Source: Methanobrevibacter millerae
GTDB lineage: Archaea; Methanobacteriota; Methanobacteria; Methanobacteriales; Methanobacteriaceae
Direction: 5' to 3'
Length of the DNA: 64,000 bases
Assembly (NCBI RefSeq): GCF_001477655.1
Contig: NZ_CP011266.1
Span: 2,464,001 to 2,528,000, forward strand
Position numbers and translations under genes: made by a program. How positions within the stretch are numbered: position 1 is the stretch's first letter; the number at the start of each line of letters is the position of its first letter. The notes beneath the pieces were generated by a model. The model was not told the DNA's origin and did not search any database. It saw only the letters and a program-made list of their open reading frames with translations. This document shows, one piece after another, positions 20,068 through 29,504 of this stretch.

Positions 20068-20625
20068 TTAATATTTGATTTGTGATTCAGCAAGCGTTGG
20101 CCATTTTTCATCCTTTTCAGAAAATATTAACTCATCAATTTCATCAATAGGCCAGTCAATACCAATATCTGGATCATTCCATATTATTCCGCCTTCATCT
20201 TCACCATGATAAAATTCAGTGCATTTGTATGCAAACTCTGCTTCATCAGATAAAACCACAAAACCATGAGCAAAGCAAGGAGGAATATACAATTGTTTCT
20301 TGTTTTCATCAGATAAAATAGCACCAAACCATTCACCATAAGTTGGAGAGTCAGCTCTTAAATCAACACCAACATCAAAGACTTCCCCTTTCAAAACCCT
20401 AACAAGTTTACCTTGAGGGTATTTTAACTGTAAATGGAGACCTCTAAGCACACCATTTGATGAAGAAGACTGATTATCCTGAACAAATGTCAAATCATAA
20501 CCTGCATCCTTAAAATCATTCTCATTATAAGTCTCCATAAAATAACCACGATTATCACCAAAAACCGCAGGCTCCACAATAAACATACCTTCAATATCAC
20601 ATTCTGTAAATTTAAATTGACCCAT
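20068..20625 (-). CDS. rfbC: dTDP-4-dehydrorhamnose 3,5-epimerase
   Basis: This enzyme makes the double epimerisation at C3 and C5 of the dTDP-4-keto-6-deoxyhexose, the third step to dTDP-L-rhamnose. The 185-residue cupin protein is full length. It contains GDNRGYFMETY near residue 23, FVQDNQSSSSNGVLRGLHLQ with the catalytic base histidine at residue 64, KLVRVLKGEVFDVGVDLR, and IPPCFAHGFVVLSDEAEFAYKC. The last block carries the catalytic tyrosine region. It sits 6 bases from rmlA and 12 from rmlB, so the three should be made together. Confidence 0.96.
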   Translation of the reverse strand: MGQFKFTECDIEGMFIVEPAVFGDNRGYFMETYNENDFKDAGYDLTFVQDNQSSSSNGVLRGLHLQLKYPQGKLVRVLKGEVFDVGVDLRADSPTYGEWFGAILSDENKKQLYIPPCFAHGFVVLSDEAEFAYKCTEFYHGEDEGGIIWNDPDIGIDWPIDEIDELIFSEKDEKWPTLAESQIKY

Positions 20626-20631
20626 AATTAA

Positions 20632-21498
20632 TCACCTCTTCGCTAAATTAAATAAATATTGTCCATAATCAGTTTTTTTAAGCTCTTCAGCTGTTTTAAG
20701 TAATTGTTCTTTTGAAATATAACCTTTAAGATATGCAATTTCTTCAAGACAAGCAATATACAAACTTTGTCTTTTTTGAACCGTTTCAATAAAATTAGCG
20801 GCTTCTAAAAGACCTGTATGAGTTCCAGTATCCAGCCAAGCCATTCCACGACCTAAAAGCTCTACTTTAAGTTTTCCACGATTTAAATACTCTTCGTTAA
20901 CTGATGTGATTTCAACTTCTCCTCTTTCAGAAGGCTTAACATTTTTTGCGATTTCAATTACATCATTATCATAGAAGTATAATCCTGGTACGATATAATT
21001 TGATTTAGGATGTTCAGGTTTTTCTTCAACAGATAAAACATTCCAATCATCATCAAACTCAACAACACCAAAAGCCTCAGGATTATTAGTATAATAACCA
21101 AAAATAACTGCTCCATCCTCAAGATTAGTTGCACGCTCTAAAATTTCAGTAAACCTATGGCCATGGAAAATGTTATCCCCTAAAATCAAAGCAACATTAT
21201 CATCACCAATAAAATCCTCACCAACAATAAAAGCTTCAGCAAGACCATTAGGATGCTCTTGAACAGCATACTCAAAACTAATACCCAATGAAGAGCCATC
21301 ACCCAACAAATCCTTATACATAGGCAAATCACGAGGAGTGGAAATAATCAAAATCTCCTTAATTCCAGCAAGCATAAGAACAGAAATCGGATAATAAATC
21401 ATAGGTTTATCATATAATGGTAATAACTGCTTAGAAACAGCCTTAGTAATAGGATACAAACGAGTTCCAGAACCACCAGCAAGTACAATACCTTTCAT
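20632..21498 (-). CDS. rfbA: Glucose-1-phosphate thymidylyltransferase
   Basis: This enzyme activates glucose-1-phosphate with dTTP to give dTDP-glucose, the entry to the rhamnose pathway. The 288-residue protein starts [16 protein letters not shown], the conserved nucleotide-binding loop, so I use the ATG at 21498 rather than a GTG nine bases earlier. Other family marks are [15 protein letters not shown], the metal-binding aspartate in [31 protein letters not shown], and [18 protein letters not shown]. An AT-rich gap of about 145 bases separates it from the ABC ATPase gene, so a separate promoter for rmlACB is possible. Confidence 0.96.
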
Positions 21499-21642
21499 AA
21501 AAATCACTTTAATATTTAAATATGATTAATATTTTATAACTAATAATTAATTAAAATAACTATTTGAAAAAATAAAATATTAAAAAATTAAATTATGAAA
21601 TTAAAATTCATCTTAATAAATAATAAAAAAAGTTTTAAAGAA

Positions 21643-23412
21643 TTATTGTAATTGTAAACCACTTAATTCTTCTTCAGATGCTTTTTTAGCTGCTTCAATG
21701 TAAGCATCACAAACATAATCAACATCCCCATCCATTACAAGTTTACCATGATCAAGCCAAATAGCACGAGTACATAATTCACGAATATTATCAGTTGCAT
21801 GAGATACAAGTAGTACTGTTACACCAGACCCCATCATTGATTTAAGTTTATCTCCACTTTTTTTCTGGAATTTTACATCTCCCACCGATAATACTTCATC
21901 CAATATTAAAACATCGGGTTCTACTATGGTTGCAACTGAAAAACCTAATTTTGCTACCATACCTGAAGAGTAATTTTTAATTGGAATATCTATGAAATCC
22001 TCCAATTCTGAAAATTCCAAGATTTCTTCATATTTACTTTCTAAAAACTCTCTTGAATAACCTAAAATAGCACCATTTAAAAATACATTTTCACGACCAC
22101 TATAATTATGATCAAATCCCGCACCTAACTCAAGTAGAGGAGCAATAGTACCATAAGTATGAATTTCACCAGAAGTTGGTTTTAAAACACCAGATAATAT
22201 TTTTAATATAGTACTTTTACCAGCACCATTAAAACCAATAATACCAACCCGTTCACCCTTATGAACAGAAAAAGAAACATTATCAAGAGCTTTAAATTTA
22301 TTTTTAGGTTTTAATTCTCTTTTAACCCATTTAATACAATATTCTTTAAGATTATCCACTTTTTCTTGAGGTTTTTTGAATTCCATTGATACATTATCAA
22401 CATCTATAACAATATCCTGATTCATTAACTGATAGTATTCATCATCCCCCAGTTCTGAACCCCAAACATTAGTTGTTTCATCAAATAAGTTAGGAGGGCT
22501 GTCAAAATCTTTGTCATGAACTTCAACATAAAAATTAGGAGTAACACCAAAGTTTTCATTATACCCCGACAATGCCTTTAAACCTTCGCTAGTGCATTTT
22601 AAAACTAACCTAATAGCTGCTGAACCTTTTCCTCGCACAGATGGATGCCAAATTAATGTTTTTTCATCAAATTCATCTTCATACAACTCTTCATCAACAT
22701 CATCATCTGTTAATTTATTAATTTTAGATGCTTTGAAATAATATCTTAAGATTTCAAGGCCTTCAGGAATATTAATTTTAACTTCTTGACGTTTTGTTGA
22801 TACCCCATTGACATTTCTAAAGTAAAGAGAATACCTGAATTCATCTCCAACAGCTAATTGAATAGGTTCTTCTTCAGTCGGGAAATAAGTATTGGTTTCA
22901 CCTGAAGTCAATAAATATCTTTTAATATCAAAAACCAACCTTACACGTACAAAATCAAAGAATAATAAACCACCATTTTTGTTTATATTTTCAGGAAATT
23001 CAAATTTGATTTGAAAATCATCCCCTTTAACATCCTCCCCCAAAACTTCTTCTAAAGGAATTGTAACACTACGGTCTGCAGGGTAAATATCAGCATTAAT
23101 AAAAGAATAAATTTCAAATTCTTTTTCACCAATCATAAGTGTAATTAATGGAGGTTCTATTTCTATTGGTCTTTGAGAAGATTCCTTGTGAAAATCATGC
23201 TCAATAACAACTTCAGAAACTCTAGCATCATCAGGAATATTAAAATTAAAATCACTTATTGTAAATACCCCAGGTTTTTGTCCAGGAGATACATATGTAG
23301 ATGCAACATCATCCCAATCATCAAGCATTATATTATCTAAATTTTCCCATTTGGACTTTTCATCGTCTTCCTTTTGAGAAATTCTTTTTGGATATCTTAA
23401 TTGAATAGTCAT
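21643..23412 (-). CDS. Polysaccharide ABC exporter ATPase with large N-terminal beta extension
   Basis: The 589-residue protein carries the ATPase domain at its C-terminal end: about residues 345-589 with Walker A GFNGAGKST near 390, PTSGEIHTYGTIAPLLELGAGFD, signature YSSGMVAKLGFS near 480 and Walker B VLILDEVLSVGD near 500. These match the TagH/Wzt/RfbE type that powers export of lipid-linked polysaccharide. Wzt proteins normally have the glycan-binding domain after the ATPase. Here about 345 residues lie in front, seemingly two beta-sandwich units (FNIPDDARVSEVVIEHDF near 70-90; FRNVNGVSTKRQEVKINIP near 205). A strong AAGGAGAT ribosome binding site precedes the ATG. It lies 12 bases after its permease. 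Confidence 0.9.
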   Translation of the reverse strand: MTIQLRYPKRISQKEDDEKSKWENLDNIMLDDWDDVASTYVSPGQKPGVFTISDFNFNIPDDARVSEVVIEHDFHKESSQRPIEIEPPLITLMIGEKEFEIYSFINADIYPADRSVTIPLEEVLGEDVKGDDFQIKFEFPENINKNGGLLFFDFVRVRLVFDIKRYLLTSGETNTYFPTEEEPIQLAVGDEFRYSLYFRNVNGVSTKRQEVKINIPEGLEILRYYFKASKINKLTDDDVDEELYEDEFDEKTLIWHPSVRGKGSAAIRLVLKCTSEGLKALSGYNENFGVTPNFYVEVHDKDFDSPPNLFDETTNVWGSELGDDEYYQLMNQDIVIDVDNVSMEFKKPQEKVDNLKEYCIKWVKRELKPKNKFKALDNVSFSVHKGERVGIIGFNGAGKSTILKILSGVLKPTSGEIHTYGTIAPLLELGAGFDHNYSGRENVFLNGAILGYSREFLESKYEEILEFSELEDFIDIPIKNYSSGMVAKLGFSVATIVEPDVLILDEVLSVGDVKFQKKSGDKLKSMMGSGVTVLLVSHATDNIRELCTRAIWLDHGKLVMDGDVDYVCDAYIEAAKKASEEELSGLQLQ

Positions 23413-23424
23413 CTTTTTATCTCC

Positions 23425-24210
23425 TTAAATATTAAGTATAAATTCATCTTGGTATTTTTTAAATAAAAATATTCCAATAACAAGTGCAATAATGGATGTA
23501 ATTATTAAATAAATGAAAAATTTCATTTCGGGAAAAGTACCTGCCAAAACTATATCTCTGAAACATTTTACTCCAGCATATAACGGATTTATTTTAAATA
23601 ATATCAGATATTGCTCAGGAATCATTTCAATAGGATAGAATAATGGAGTCATAAATGACAATAGCATTATCAAAACACCGTACAAATATTTAATATCTGT
23701 AAAAAATGTTGTAGCAGTAGCCAAAATCAAACCAACACCCATTGTTAATAACAATAAGAAAAACAATGGAATCGGTGAGTAAAGAAGTGACCAGTAAAAT
23801 GGTGCACCTGTTGCAACCATCACAGCGACAAGCACTATAAGAGATATTAAAAAGTTTATAAATTCCGAACATACAATTCCTACTGCAAACATATATTTTG
23901 GAACATAAATTTTTTTAATAATTTCTGAATTACCTTTAATTGAATCCATTGCTCCAGTAGTTGCATTGGCAAATAAATCAAAAACCAATTTACCACTCAA
24001 TAAATAAACTGGGAAATTAGGAATTGATCCACCGAAAAATTGTGAAAACACCATAGTTAAAACAATCATAGATAATAATGGATTAAAAAAACTCCAAAAC
24101 AAACCTAAAGTAGAATCCTTATATTTTCCGCTAATATCCCTTTTAATTAATTCTGTAAGTAAAAATGAATACTTATTAAAATTTCTTAAGTGCTTATTTC
24201 TTTCAAACAT
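23425..24210 (-). CDS. ABC-2 type polysaccharide export permease (TagG/Wzm family)
   Basis: This 261-residue integral membrane protein has about six membrane helices and the hallmarks of the O-antigen/teichoic acid permease group: an amphipathic N-terminus LITELIKRDISGKYKDSTLGLFWSF cut into the typical KRDIxxxYKxSxLGxxW pattern, NPLLSMIVLTMVF, then FTDIKYLYGVLIMLLSFMTPLFYP and INPLYAGVKCFRDIV. It should pair with the ATPase encoded 12 bases downstream to move the finished glycan across the cytoplasmic membrane. The gene starts 86 bases after barstar, with an AT-rich gap that may hold an extra promoter. Confidence 0.93.
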   Translation of the reverse strand: MFERNKHLRNFNKYSFLLTELIKRDISGKYKDSTLGLFWSFFNPLLSMIVLTMVFSQFFGGSIPNFPVYLLSGKLVFDLFANATTGAMDSIKGNSEIIKKIYVPKYMFAVGIVCSEFINFLISLIVLVAVMVATGAPFYWSLLYSPIPLFFLLLLTMGVGLILATATTFFTDIKYLYGVLIMLLSFMTPLFYPIEMIPEQYLILFKINPLYAGVKCFRDIVLAGTFPEMKFFIYLIITSIIALVIGIFLFKKYQDEFILNI

Positions 24211-24295: not shown

Positions 24296-24532
24296 TTAAA
24301 CGAATTTTATTATTAAATTCTCATTATCATTATTTGCATCATCAAAAGTATCTAAAATGCATTCTTTTACATCAACAACATTAATGATATGAATTTCACA
24401 ATTCAAATCACATAAACAATCATAAAGTGCATCTAAATTTTCACCATAATAATCTGGAAAATCTAAAGCTTTTTTTATATATTTATGACCATCACGAGCT
24501 ATTAATTTTCCATCAAGTTCATAAACGTTCAA
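24296..24532 (-). CDS. Barstar-family ribonuclease inhibitor (immunity protein)
   Basis: The 78-residue protein has the barstar core YYGENLDALYDCL at residues 28-40. In barstar this helix plugs the barnase active site with two aspartates (Asp35 and Asp39), which correspond here to Asp34 and Asp38. The opening MNVYELDGKLIARDG matches the first beta strand and loop. The start is a TTG at 24532, 4 bases after the stop of the barnase-like gene. The ribosome binding site GAGGT lies in the last codons of that gene, seven bases upstream of the TTG, so translation of inhibitor and nuclease is likely coupled. It has no export signal, as expected for a protein that protects the producing cytoplasm. Confidence 0.88.
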   Translation of the reverse strand: MNVYELDGKLIARDGHKYIKKALDFPDYYGENLDALYDCLCDLNCEIHIINVVDVKECILDTFDDANNDNENLIIKFV

Positions 24533-24535
24533 TTT

Positions 24536-24961
24536 TTATACCTCTTTAAATGTTTTATAATGGTCAGATGTATAATACACTTGAAATGTATCACTATTAT
24601 AAATTATTCTTTCAGGTCCTCTTGAAGTACCATTTGCATTAATATCACATTCAATGTATTTAGCCGAAGTTTTAGGAAGTACATCTTCCCTATTACCAAA
24701 TACATCACCGCCAATACTTTTACCCGGAGCATATTTATTTAAAGGACCTCCAGACCATCCTAAATCCCTAGCTTGATTTTTTGTAATATAATTACTAGGT
24801 AATTTATGAAATTCTTTAATATATGCTGCCACTTCATCAACAGTACAATATTGGCCATCTTCCACTACCTTAACATCTTTTTGAGCAAAAGATCCTGATA
24901 AGAAAAGGCCTCCCAATAATGCTATAATTGCAAAAACAATTATTAACATCCTTTTATCCAT
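24536..24961 (-). CDS. Secreted barnase-type ribonuclease
   Basis: The 141-residue protein aligns with barnase from about residue 41 to the end. Shared blocks include KLPSNYITKNQARDLGW, APGKSIGGDVFGNRE and SDHYKTF. Counterparts of the catalytic and substrate-binding residues are all present: Lys61 (barnase Lys27), Arg91 (Arg59), Glu104 (Glu73, general base), Arg114 and Arg118 (Arg83 and Arg87) and His134 (His102, general acid). The N-terminus MDKRMLIIVFAIIALLGG is a signal peptide or membrane anchor, so it is exported or surface-tethered. It starts 9 bases after rmlD with AGGTGG as ribosome binding site and is followed by its barstar inhibitor. It should cleave single-stranded RNA, probably of competitors. 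Confidence 0.92.
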   Translation of the reverse strand: MDKRMLIIVFAIIALLGGLFLSGSFAQKDVKVVEDGQYCTVDEVAAYIKEFHKLPSNYITKNQARDLGWSGGPLNKYAPGKSIGGDVFGNREDVLPKTSAKYIECDINANGTSRGPERIIYNSDTFQVYYTSDHYKTFKEV

Positions 24962-24970
24962 TTAATCCAC

Positions 24971-25810
24971 CTACTTTATGATATCAATATATTCTTTAAT
25001 AGCTTCTTTATAACTTCTTAAAGGTTTAAATCCATTATCAATCCATTTTTTATTATTTAAAACAGAATAAGAAGGTCTTGGAGCAGGTCTTGCAAATTCA
25101 GATGCAGTGACTGGAGTAACCTTAACATCAACATCTGCAATTTCAAAAATATATTTTGCAAAGTCAAACCAGGAACAACTGTCAGAATTAGTCAAATGAT
25201 AAATCCCGTAATATTCTGTTTCAATTAATTTGGCAATGGCTTTTGCCAAATCCAAAGTATATGTAGGACAACCAACTTCATCCGTAACAACAGTTATTTC
25301 AGGATGAATTTTAGCTAATTCCAACATTGTTTTAGGAAAATTACCCCCATTTACTCCATATAACCAAGCAGTCCTTATGATAAAGAAATTATCTATTGTT
25401 TCTTGAATTCCAATTTCACCTTCAAGTTTACTTTTTCCATAAACACTGATTGGATCAATTTCATCGTCTTCAACCCAAGGCCTTGTATTTTTACCATTAA
25501 ATACATAATCCGTGCTCACATGAACAAGAGGACAATTTACTTCCTTACATCCCAAAGCCAAATTTTTTGGACCTTCACCATTAACGGCAAATGCCAAATC
25601 AACATTTTCTTCACAGCCATCAACATTAGTATAAGCGGCAGAATTAATTACAACATCAGGATTTTTTTCCTTAATAAATGAAATAACATGTTCTTTATTA
25701 GTTATATCCAATGATGAAGAAGTAGTTAATATCAATTCATGTTTAGCATCTAAAACTTCTATTAAATCATGCCCCAACATACCATTAGAACCAGTAATTA
25801 AAATCTTCAT
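24971..25810 (-). CDS. rfbD: dTDP-4-dehydrorhamnose reductase
   Basis: This is the last step of dTDP-L-rhamnose synthesis, NADPH-dependent reduction of the 4-keto group. The 279-residue protein starts MKILITGSNGMLG with the GxxGxxG cofactor loop at residues 7-13. STDYVFNG, the YGKSK motif containing the catalytic tyrosine and lysine, and RTAWLYG are the RmlD hallmarks. I use the ATG at 25810 because GGGGAT lies just upstream; a start further upstream would have no ribosome binding site. It is the first gene of the minus-strand run and is separated from rmlACB by barnase, barstar and the ABC exporter, an unusual split of the four rhamnose genes. Confidence 0.94.
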   Translation of the reverse strand: MKILITGSNGMLGHDLIEVLDAKHELILTTSSSLDITNKEHVISFIKEKNPDVVINSAAYTNVDGCEENVDLAFAVNGEGPKNLALGCKEVNCPLVHVSTDYVFNGKNTRPWVEDDEIDPISVYGKSKLEGEIGIQETIDNFFIIRTAWLYGVNGGNFPKTMLELAKIHPEITVVTDEVGCPTYTLDLAKAIAKLIETEYYGIYHLTNSDSCSWFDFAKYIFEIADVDVKVTPVTASEFARPAPRPSYSVLNNKKWIDNGFKPLRSYKEAIKEYIDIIK

Positions 25811-25885
25811 TTTTATCCCCAAAAATTTTATTATATAAATTAAATATATCAATATTAATATTTAAAATTTCAAGGGGTGTTTAAT
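25811..25885. promoter_or_regulatory. Divergent promoter region, rmlD and wecC
   Basis: The 75-base gap between the two divergent starts is almost wholly A and T. It contains a TTATATAA core near 25830-25840 and TATTTAAAA near 25859-25867, which could serve as TATA boxes for the minus and plus strand respectively. Ribosome binding sites GGGGAT (for rmlD) and AAGGGGTG (for wecC) lie at the two edges. No repeated operator was found. Confidence 0.45.
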
Positions 25886-27118
25886 ATGAAAGTATGTATT
25901 ATTGGACAAGGTTATATCGGACTTCCAACTGCCGCATTATTTGCAAGAAATCATTGTGAAGTCGTTGGAGTTGATGTTAACGAAAAAATGATTGAAAATT
26001 TAAATAATGGAATCATTCACATTGAAGAGCCTGGAATATCTGATATAATAAAACAAGCTTTAAAAAATAAAGTTTATAAAGCTTCCCTAAAACCTGAAAA
26101 AGCAGATGCATTCATAATAACCGTCCCTACACCATATATCGCAGATAATTATAGCTGTGATTTAAGCTATGTCATTAGTGCATGCGAATCAATCATTCCA
26201 TTTTTAGAAAAAGATAATATAGTTATTGTTGAATCAACAATAGCTCCAATGTCAACTGACGATATTGTAAAACCTATTTTTGAAAAAGAAGGATTTACTA
26301 TAGGTGAGGATTTATACCTTGCCCATTGCCCCGAAAGAGTTCTGCCCGGAAAAATTATAGAAGAATTAATTCATAATGACCGTATTATCGGAGGAATAAC
26401 ACCAAAATGCAGTCAAAAGGCCAGCGAAGTATATGGTCAATTTGTAGAGGGTGAATTAATGTTAACTGAAGCAAAAACTGCTGAATTATCAAAATGTATG
26501 GAAAACACTTTTAGAGATGTCAACATCGCATTAGCTAATGAACTCACAAAAATTTGTGCTGAAATTGGTGTTAATGCATTAGATGTAATAAAAATGGCAA
26601 ATAAACATCCAAGAGTCAACTTACATACACCAGGACCAGGTGTTGGCGGTCACTGCCTTGCAATTGATCCTTATTTTATTTATGCAAAAGCTCCTGAAAC
26701 TGCTAAGTTAATTAAGCTTGCAAGAGACACCAATAATTCCATGCCGGAATTTGTATGTGATAATGTAAGAAAAATAATAACTAAAGGAAAAATTGCAATA
26801 TTAGGTGTTTCCTATAAAGGGAATACTGGTGATGACAGAGAAAGTCCATCATATGAGATTATAGACAATTTAAAGAAAAATTATGAAATATCAATTCATG
26901 ACCCTCATATAGACAAACCAAATTTTGTTAGCTTTAAAGAAGCTGTAACCGATGCTGACTTAATTTTAATATTATGTGACCATAATGAGTTTAAAAACCT
27001 AGATTATACATTAATACATGAAGATACAGTAATTTTTGATACAAAAAATATAATCTACAAGGTTCCAGATAAGATTAAACTTTACAATTATGGAAACTTA
27101 TACGAACTTAATCTTTAA
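25886..27118 (+). CDS. wecC: UDP-N-acetyl-D-mannosamine dehydrogenase
   Basis: The enzyme oxidises UDP-ManNAc twice with NAD to give UDP-ManNAcA, a donor used in archaeal glycoprotein glycans and surface polymers. The 410-residue protein starts MKVCIIGQGYIGLP (NAD loop at residues 7-12), has STIAPMSTDD, LAHCPERVLPGK, ELSKCMENTFRDVN, and HTPGPGVGGHCLAIDPYF with the catalytic Cys257. The wording of the last block fits the WecC branch better than UDP-glucose dehydrogenase. The ATG at 25886 has AAGGGGTG at ideal distance; a GTG nine bases earlier overlaps that site. No UDP-GlcNAc 2-epimerase is in the window. It meets the DUF2264 gene tail to tail with an 11-base overlap. Confidence 0.9.
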   Translation: MKVCIIGQGYIGLPTAALFARNHCEVVGVDVNEKMIENLNNGIIHIEEPGISDIIKQALKNKVYKASLKPEKADAFIITVPTPYIADNYSCDLSYVISACESIIPFLEKDNIVIVESTIAPMSTDDIVKPIFEKEGFTIGEDLYLAHCPERVLPGKIIEELIHNDRIIGGITPKCSQKASEVYGQFVEGELMLTEAKTAELSKCMENTFRDVNIALANELTKICAEIGVNALDVIKMANKHPRVNLHTPGPGVGGHCLAIDPYFIYAKAPETAKLIKLARDTNNSMPEFVCDNVRKIITKGKIAILGVSYKGNTGDDRESPSYEIIDNLKKNYEISIHDPHIDKPNFVSFKEAVTDADLILILCDHNEFKNLDYTLIHEDTVIFDTKNIIYKVPDKIKLYNYGNLYELNL

Positions 27119-28286
27119 TGTACATATTTGAGTCTATATCCTTTCCGCTCCAAGCCTTTAGTGAAGTCCATTCCGCACTTGGAGCTGACCAAAATCTATC
27201 CTTTTCAGGTAAACCCAAAGGCAGAAATCCAGTTGTGCATAAATACATACTACCAGTATTACTATAATCTTCAGCCACATTTGGCTGATTTCCATTAAAT
27301 CCAAATCGTAACCATCCATCATTATCAAAATTAGCATTATCCGAAAATTGATTTTGAATTACAGAAGTTAATGCACATCTAATCTGTTCAGGCTTTACAT
27401 CCTCATTATATAAACCAAACAAACATGCCTGACCCAAAGCCTGAAAAACAGCAGTTCTATATAACATTGACCTACCAACTACAGGATATGTTCCTTCAGG
27501 AGATATAAGCCTTTCCAAGTGTCCTGCATAATGCCTTAACCTATGTAAATGAGCATCTAAAAAAGTATATTCGCCAATGCCATGCTTTCTTAAAACTGAA
27601 AGTATGTCAGTAAGCATTGGATGAATGACATAACTATTATAATAATCAAAATGGAAATTGGGACCATCGCCATAATAGGAATCACCACAATACCATTCAT
27701 TCATATAGACATTTACACCATGCATTAATCTGAACTCATCATATTCCCCAGTAGTTTCAAGTAAAAAAGCTTCAATCATTGATGGAAATAAAATCCAATT
27801 GTTAATCCATGGTTCAATAGAACGAGTTTGTTTTAACGCATCAACAATCATTTCTTGATTGTCATGATTAATGTTATCCCAAAGTTGAGTTTTAGCCCTA
27901 AGCAATCCCTCTACCAAATGTGCAGAATCAACTAACGGCTGATACGGTTGATTAAAAATTAAATAATCGGGTGAATCTGGATTACATATATTGACTAATC
28001 CTTTAGTGGTTAACTCTATATATTTGGCCCTTAATTTACCTTCATAAGAATTATCAGCACCTAATTCTAGCCAAGGAGCAATACCACATACAGTACGACC
28101 TACTGCCTCCAAATGTGCAAATTTAGCTCTTTCATTCTTGACGGCATTAACCGGCATATTTTTTTTAAGAGTTTCATTTGCAGCATTTGTTAATACCGGA
28201 TTAATGATTTTAGATAATGTATCGACCCAAATTTTCCGGTCATTATTTGAATTAAAATTTTTAGAAAAAAATGATTTAAAACCCAT
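27108..28286 (-). CDS. DUF2264 family protein
   Basis: The 392-residue protein resembles the DUF2264 group: FAHLEAVGRTVCGIAPWLELG near residue 56, LVEGLLRAKTQLWDNI, NNWILFPSMIEAFLLE, GDGPNFHFDYYNSYVIHPML, and GRSMLYRTAVFQAL. The family is predicted to be an alpha/alpha-toroid protein of the kind found in polysaccharide lyases and glycosidases, but no activity is established that I know of. It has no signal peptide, so it acts inside the cell. It is a paralogue of the next gene, 10 bases away, and the pair lies at the edge of the polysaccharide locus, which suggests a role in glycan metabolism. Confidence 0.82.
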   Translation of the reverse strand: MGFKSFFSKNFNSNNDRKIWVDTLSKIINPVLTNAANETLKKNMPVNAVKNERAKFAHLEAVGRTVCGIAPWLELGADNSYEGKLRAKYIELTTKGLVNICNPDSPDYLIFNQPYQPLVDSAHLVEGLLRAKTQLWDNINHDNQEMIVDALKQTRSIEPWINNWILFPSMIEAFLLETTGEYDEFRLMHGVNVYMNEWYCGDSYYGDGPNFHFDYYNSYVIHPMLTDILSVLRKHGIGEYTFLDAHLHRLRHYAGHLERLISPEGTYPVVGRSMLYRTAVFQALGQACLFGLYNEDVKPEQIRCALTSVIQNQFSDNANFDNDGWLRFGFNGNQPNVAEDYSNTGSMYLCTTGFLPLGLPEKDRFWSAPSAEWTSLKAWSGKDIDSNMYIKD

Positions 28287-28295
28287 AAAAATCCA

Positions 28296-29504
28296 TTAAA
28301 AGTTTATTGGTTGATCATTGCCTATCACATGCCCGTTCCAAGCTTTAAGAGATGACCATTCTTCAAAGTCATCTGTCCAAAATGGATCATTGGAATCAAG
28401 CCCTAAAGGTAAAAATACAGAACAACATAAGTATAAACTTCCAGTATTAATATCTGTCTCTGCAATATCTACCTGATGACCATTTAAACCAGTTATTAAC
28501 CATCCACCATTAGAGAAATTTTGATTTCCATCAAATAAATTTCTTAAAACTTTAGTCAATGCTGCTCTAACTTGAGATACTTCAATATTTCTTGGTAAAA
28601 TTCTAAGTAAAGCAACTTGAGATAAAGTATGGAAAATACCAGATCTATAACTAATTGATTTACCTACAATAGGATAAGTACCATCTGGAGAAATACATCT
28701 TTCTAATTGGGATGCTAGTCTTGATGATCTCATTAATTGAACATCCAAAAATTCTCCATCCGGTAATCCATATTTTCTCATTACCATTAAAATATCGTTA
28801 AGCATTGGATGAATAAAAATACTATTATAATAATTTGAAGCAAAATCTGCCCCATCCCTATAAATTGCATCTCCAACATACCATTCATCCCTAAATTTAT
28901 GAACAGCATATACCAAACGTTCTTTATCACACTCGCCAGTGAATTCTAAAAGTGCTGCCTCAATAATTGAAGTGTATAAAAGCCAATGATTGTCATATGG
29001 AGCTATAATTCTTGAATTTTTAAATTCATCCATAATTTTTGCCTGTACATCCATCGGTAGATTAAGCCAAATTTGATTTTTAGAACGAAGTAAACCTTGA
29101 GCAAATAAAGCCATATCCACTAATGATTGTTTAGGTTCATTATAAAATATATAATCATTTTTATTTGGATTAACTGCTACACTAATAGCTTCAATTGTTA
29201 AATTAATATATTTATCACGAAGTCTACCTTCTTCAGATTCTGAAGGTCCAAGCTCTAACCATGGAGCTATACCATTAAATACACGTGCAAATGCTTCAAG
29301 ATAAGCAAATTTACCACCTTCAGAACTACTTGACTCTAAAAGCATATTTTTCCTTAAAGAATCTTTCCTAAGATTTATTAATACCGGTAAAGCTATTTTT
29401 TGTAAAGTTTCAACCCAAAAAATTCTATCTTCCCAAACTGGAACCTGTTCTTCCATAACAGGAATTTCTTCTTCTTTTTTAAATCTTCCAAAAAACTTGC
29501 TCAT
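28296..29504 (-). CDS. DUF2264 family protein (paralogue)
   Basis: The 402-residue sister of the 27108 gene has the same order of blocks: FAYLEAFARVFNGIAPWLELGP, MALFAQGLLRSKNQIW, DNHWLLYTSIIEAALLE, GDAIYRDGADFASNYYNSIFIHPML, GKSISYRSGIFHTLSQ, and a C-terminal GWLITGLNGHQVDIAET. Both proteins start with a short basic stretch and then a DRIFWVETLQKI helix. The conserved aspartate, asparagine and histidine in the RDGADFASNYYN region could form an active site, by analogy with toroid lyases, but this is inference. Its upstream region is divergent from leuC. Two tandem copies suggest a heteromer or two related substrates. Confidence 0.82.
   Translation of the reverse strand: MSKFFGRFKKEEEIPVMEEQVPVWEDRIFWVETLQKIALPVLINLRKDSLRKNMLLESSSSEGGKFAYLEAFARVFNGIAPWLELGPSESEEGRLRDKYINLTIEAISVAVNPNKNDYIFYNEPKQSLVDMALFAQGLLRSKNQIWLNLPMDVQAKIMDEFKNSRIIAPYDNHWLLYTSIIEAALLEFTGECDKERLVYAVHKFRDEWYVGDAIYRDGADFASNYYNSIFIHPMLNDILMVMRKYGLPDGEFLDVQLMRSSRLASQLERCISPDGTYPIVGKSISYRSGIFHTLSQVALLRILPRNIEVSQVRAALTKVLRNLFDGNQNFSNGGWLITGLNGHQVDIAETDINTGSLYLCCSVFLPLGLDSNDPFWTDDFEEWSSLKAWNGHVIGNDQPINF

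Follow-up and report, generated by a model that had tools for sequence, protein, structure and literature searches.

The 64-kb window of the Methanobrevibacter millerae genome analysed here (the whole stretch of DNA studied; coordinates below are positions within it) encodes a barnase-type guanyl-specific RNase together with a barstar. We conclude that the two form a stable, widely inherited gene pair of a known kind, not a new archaeal weapon. The reading we prefer, with a probability of roughly 0.55, is that the RNase is exported, held at the cell surface and used for nutrition on extracellular RNA, with barstar acting as a cytoplasmic safety catch. The molecular part of this reading, an RNase plus its inhibitor, is very probable. 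From the evidence below we infer activity, binding of the partners, surface location, operon transcription and a nutritional role. What the analysis adds is how widely the pair is spread, its fixed place, the sites that lack it and how much the N-termini vary.

The RNase gene (24536..24961, minus strand) encodes a protein of 141 aa with a predicted N-terminal signal or anchor (residues 1 to ~26) and a catalytic domain (~38-141). The protein matches PF00545 (E = 9.7e-19; 68 bits, cut-off 24), with residues 44-141 aligned to positions 4-97 of the 98 in the profile, and matches barnase chains of the PDB in a phmmer search (E = 2.2e-27). Single chains were folded with AlphaFold from alignments of each window protein with homologues from related loci. 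The RNase model (pLDDT 89) has barnase as its top Foldseek match in the PDB (TM 0.91 on the target, rmsd ~1.4), which confirms the barnase fold. The active-site assignments of the preliminary description also held: counterparts of barnase Lys27, Arg59, Glu73, Arg83, Arg87 and His102 are all present (K61, R91, E104, R114, R118 and H134), and Y103 corresponds to Y135. The equivalents of K27, E73, R83, R87, H102 and Y103 are invariant in all 36 archaeal rows of the alignment, and that of R59 is conserved in 35. Tyr occupies the R59 position in five of six aligned bacterial relatives, and these also have barstar partners. On its profile match, catalytic residues and fold, the window RNase is a true member of the barnase family. 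Two of its cysteines, C39 and C105, are located within the catalytic domain or immediately ahead of it. C105 does not vary in the RNase alignment, and C39 is confined to part of the family; a disulfide is possible.

The barstar gene (24296..24532, minus strand) encodes a predicted cytoplasmic inhibitor of 78 aa that lacks a signal peptide. It matches PF01337 (E = 6.8e-14, 52 bits, cut-off 23.4) and PDB barstar (E = 4e-7). The model (pLDDT 97) has barstar as its top Foldseek match in the PDB (TM 0.81 on the query). Both inhibitory aspartates noted earlier in the partner protein are present, with D34 and D38 corresponding to D35 and D39, and the equivalents of these residues do not vary among the 35 archaeal barstar rows. 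Profile, fold and the DxxxD aspartates identify the protein as a barstar family member. The barnase and barstar homologues first recognized from the sequence at these positions on the minus strand are supported by PF00545, PF01337 and PDB matches, and the agreement of both ORFs with their families is far beyond chance. Neither protein had a match in an NCBIfam search, and the window had no hits when scanned with Rfam or for tRNAs. Barstar starts at a TTG codon 3 bp beyond the stop codon of the RNase gene, whose 3' end (24536..24546, minus strand) contains a GAGGT ribosome-binding-site-like sequence for barstar. Given the 3-bp gap, translational coupling of the two genes is likely.

The Bacillus amyloliquefaciens pair shares with the archaeal proteins the fold, the residues K27, R59, E73, R83, R87 and H102 of barnase and D35 and D39 of barstar, and, by prediction for the archaeal enzyme, an export-type N-terminus on the RNase but not on the inhibitor. 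The pair described here differs in being archaeal, in having adjacent genes and in the length of the window barstar (78 versus 89 aa). In archaeal barstars (35 rows) the W38 position is always Tyr and the E76 position always Asp (Y37 and D65 in the window protein). The guanine-contacting Glu60 of barnase is replaced by Gln in most archaeal relatives (29 of 36 rows) but is Glu in the window RNase. Also different are the anchors or lipoboxes that precede the catalytic domain in part of the archaeal family.

These N-termini vary by group. The predicted signal peptide or membrane anchor of the window RNase (MDKRMLIIVFAIIALLGGLFLSGSFA; 24884..24961, minus strand) is hydrophobic, forms a single low-confidence helix in the model (residues 3-22) and has a cleavage-like site, SFA-Q, judged by eye. 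RNases of the thaueri type have a signal-peptide-like N-terminus with VSA-GFF, those of Methanosphaera have an anchor followed by a linker rich in Asn-X-Ser/Thr, and those of the ruminantium/olleyae group (loci L113-L126) have a lipobox-like VSGC. The last group also has PGKCIGGD instead of PGKSIGGD, and an Anaerovorax relative (L136) carries a lipobox-like LTGC on its RNase. No export-type segment was identified at the N-terminus of barstar, in agreement with the earlier suggestion of a signal or anchor on the enzyme only. From the group-specific signals, anchors and lipoboxes we read the archaeal RNases as exported proteins that would tend to stay at the surface.

The source contig is a single 2.54-Mb genome (99.99% complete, 0.62% contamination). 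Bacterial contamination, which would have removed the claim of an archaeal host, is ruled out by this single contig and by the dozens of related genomes with the pair. A search for both families across the phylum Methanobacteriota identified PF00545 in 89 of 152 genomes, distributed over five of 20 genera in one family and with one copy each. A barstar gene lies directly downstream of the RNase gene in almost all carriers, and PF01337 was found in 87 of the 152 genomes, always adjoining the RNase. The carriers include Methanobrevibacter (the millerae/thaueri and ruminantium/olleyae groups) and Methanosphaera, and most of the named carrier records come from samples of the rumen or of other animal guts. 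Among the best 80 of 203 relatives, the nearest named one is M. millerae SIG13 (95% identity). We also considered mobile sources. A viral origin was rejected, as an IMG/VR scan returned no relative, and so was a plasmid origin, as plasmid records returned four distant bacterial matches (≤49% identity) and none from archaea.

There are few exceptions to the paired arrangement. One archaeal barnase stands alone (L127:3088-3543): it has no barstar nearby and carries Glu at the position of R59, the residue that contacts barstar D35 in the known barnase-barstar complex. This single case is the only archaeal RNase of the set that has downstream room yet lacks an adjoining barstar. Its likely source is genome G012, in which PF00545 has a match and PF01337 has none. 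Upstream of this gene is an NRPS-type protein with condensation and carrier domains. In another genome, an intact barstar match (G076:C65:16978-17242) lies beside a broken RNase (a 39-aa open frame with one internal stop), perhaps because immunity was retained after loss of the enzyme, or perhaps through an assembly error. Also identified in some Methanosphaera are second barstar-like genes directly downstream (L105:6690-6935, L104:2007-2258 and L110:1073-1321) with weak scores to the barstar profile. The copy in L105 lacks a Pfam match and the YYGxNLDALYDCL motif.

In a tree of the 80 nearest relatives (the best 80 of 203), the archaeal RNases fall on one side of a branch with SH-aLRT support of 96, and the archaeal genus groups come out together. 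The bacterial side includes rumen Kiritimatiellae, Lentisphaerae and Clostridia. This tree omits B. amyloliquefaciens barnase; in a first tree its branch, with 4.1 changes per column, had split the archaea. The separation of archaeal from bacterial RNases agrees with a transfer between domains that was followed by inheritance. At least three changes are needed to account for gain and loss of the pair on the rmlD tree. Selection on the pair is purifying. For 37 pairs, in which dS is near saturation, median pairwise dN/dS is 0.045 for the catalytic domain, 0.12 for barstar and 0.06 for rmlD, with 0.13 for the RNase N-terminus and 0.04 for rmlA. The rate for barstar is roughly double that for the RNase, a comparison that is rough because dS is near saturation. 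Nothing in the same 37 comparisons points to an arms race in the RNase. No diversification was seen at the RNase/barstar interface, which is strongly conserved (36 RNase and 35 barstar rows).

In the window the pair lies within a gene cluster for dTDP-rhamnose and polysaccharide export, all on the minus strand. Upstream of the RNase gene, across a 9-bp gap, is rmlD (dTDP-4-dehydrorhamnose reductase; 24971..25852; PF04321, E = 7e-100). Following barstar are a Wzm-like ABC-2 polysaccharide exporter permease (23425..24210; PF01061), a Wzt-like ABC transporter ATPase (21643..23412; PF00005), rmlA (glucose-1-phosphate thymidylyltransferase; 20632..21507; PF00483) and rmlC (dTDP-4-dehydrorhamnose 3,5-epimerase; 20068..20625; PF00908). 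Near the surface-sugar genes are two adjacent, similar proteins of 392 and 402 aa (27108-29504), the first with a match to DUF2264. The RNase gene is directly 3' of rmlD in all 43 millerae/thaueri-group loci compared, the window included. In this group rmlA, rmlC and rmlB usually follow barstar, with the Wzm/Wzt-like exporter genes inserted between barstar and rmlA in the millerae subgroup. Four related genomes without the pair (L144, L145, L148 and L149) have rmlD directly beside rmlA. These empty sites indicate that the pair is a discrete cassette within the dTDP-rhamnose gene cluster.

A place after rmlD that is fixed across tens of species, the adjoining Wzm/Wzt-type export genes in the window and the N-terminal anchors of some family members raise the question of whether the enzyme works at the surface in defence or in control of the matrix, where it would clear RNA of the biofilm matrix or the environment from the cell surface in step with polysaccharide synthesis. 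However, the pair is found at another fixed place in the ruminantium/olleyae group and at several places in Methanosphaera. The link to rhamnose genes therefore does not hold throughout, and we regard this role as improbable. Adjacent and probably coupled genes could also indicate an intracellular toxin-antitoxin or abortive-infection module, in which the RNase would act inside the producer once barstar is lost; barnase is lethal within cells in the absence of barstar. The predicted export-type N-terminus of the RNase in the archaeal relatives compared, the location in a housekeeping sugar gene cluster with no mobile context and the lack of copies on viral contigs in the IMG/VR scan all argue against such a module, and we consider it very unlikely.

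The preliminary description knew of no archaeal exported toxin-immunity system built on these proteins, and proposed an antagonistic weapon or an RNA-scavenging enzyme. The claim of novelty falls, as two papers from 2012 predate it. Zhang et al. (2012; PMC3482391) mention "simple barnase-barstar-like systems" in methanoarchaea; these are of the same kind, with toxin then immunity gene and methanogen hosts. The statement is one sentence in the part of that paper concerned, without locus analysis, to which spread, place, empty sites and N-termini are added here. According to Lurie-Weinberger et al. (2012; PMC3445992), the genes that Methanosphaera stadtmanae gained by lateral transfer include a "putative secreted RNase (barnase)". 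This is a homologue in a sister genus, for which a bacterial origin was proposed, but in the relevant portion of the paper it appears as a lateral-transfer candidate only, with no mention of barstar. A full-text search of the literature covered found no further papers on barnase in methanogens.

An antagonistic toxin-immunity pair would require that the exported RNase enter, or be handed to, competitors while barstar protects the producer and its kin. The order of toxin then immunity gene found in polymorphic toxin systems is found here (RNase then barstar, 3-bp gap), the catalytic domain and immunity family are those of Tox-Barnase/Imm-Barstar toxins, and the family serves as a polymorphic-toxin warhead in bacteria, as described in PMC3482391. 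Also compatible are a host-associated niche crowded with competitors and a barstar that evolves faster than the RNase. Those toxins, however, have a large delivery protein, repeats, a pre-toxin domain and cassette polymorphism, all absent here: the RNase is 141 aa of predicted signal plus catalytic domain, and no RHS, WXG, T6SS-type or other delivery part was identified within its gene or adjoining it. Exchangeable cassettes and a sporadic distribution are likewise lacking; the pair is a single copy without toxin-domain swapping, occurs lineage-wide and in the same place in tens of species, and is under purifying selection with a strongly conserved interface. The lipobox or membrane-anchor N-termini of several lineages argue against a diffusible toxin. 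Thus, the weapon proposal lacks positive support and is unlikely; by analogy, RNA scavenging fits the pair better. There is only a small chance that host-associated methanogens (Methanobrevibacter, Methanosphaera), having taken up the pair and kept it as a permanent part of their genomes, use it against rumen bacteria, either to attack on contact or to defend the surface, without a delivery machine. If true, a warhead known from bacteria would have been put to use by archaea, with the pair placed among surface-sugar genes in one group.

The balifase operon of Bacillus licheniformis (PMC5021464) is the described system most like this one and, with RNase and barstar genes in a single operon, its closest match in Bacillus. 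Balifase is a secreted guanyl-specific RNase, as is predicted here, but its operon has its own promoter and is induced by phosphate starvation, whereas the pair described here is placed among rml genes. Under our preferred reading of RNA nutrition, the barnase-barstar module would have been acquired long ago and then passed on mostly by vertical descent among host-associated Methanobacteriaceae. Export of the RNase would probably use the Sec route, and the enzyme would then stay at the cell surface or be released from it. Its cuts in RNA would follow guanosine and be made as in barnase, with Glu104 as base, His134 as acid and Lys61, Arg114 and Arg118 on the phosphate. Barstar would remain in the cytoplasm and plug the active site of any RNase folded before export. 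In the gut, such an enzyme would most likely serve to digest extracellular RNA as a source of phosphate, nucleotides or bases; this reading draws on the analogy of secreted Bacillus RNases under phosphate control and on a common permease. This nucleobase permease (PF00860) is encoded in the window's own genome and in 11 of 14 control genomes; its presence in most genomes counts against it as support for a nutritional role. RNA nutrition also does not explain the place of the pair among surface-polysaccharide genes.

These findings correct a purely bacterial view of barnase and barstar, as the pair is common in gut methanogens, which are major host-associated archaea. The roughly 60 archaeal barnase-barstar pairs can be used to study the evolution of the interface. 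M. millerae is cultivable and offers a simple test of how an extracellular RNase serves an archaeon.
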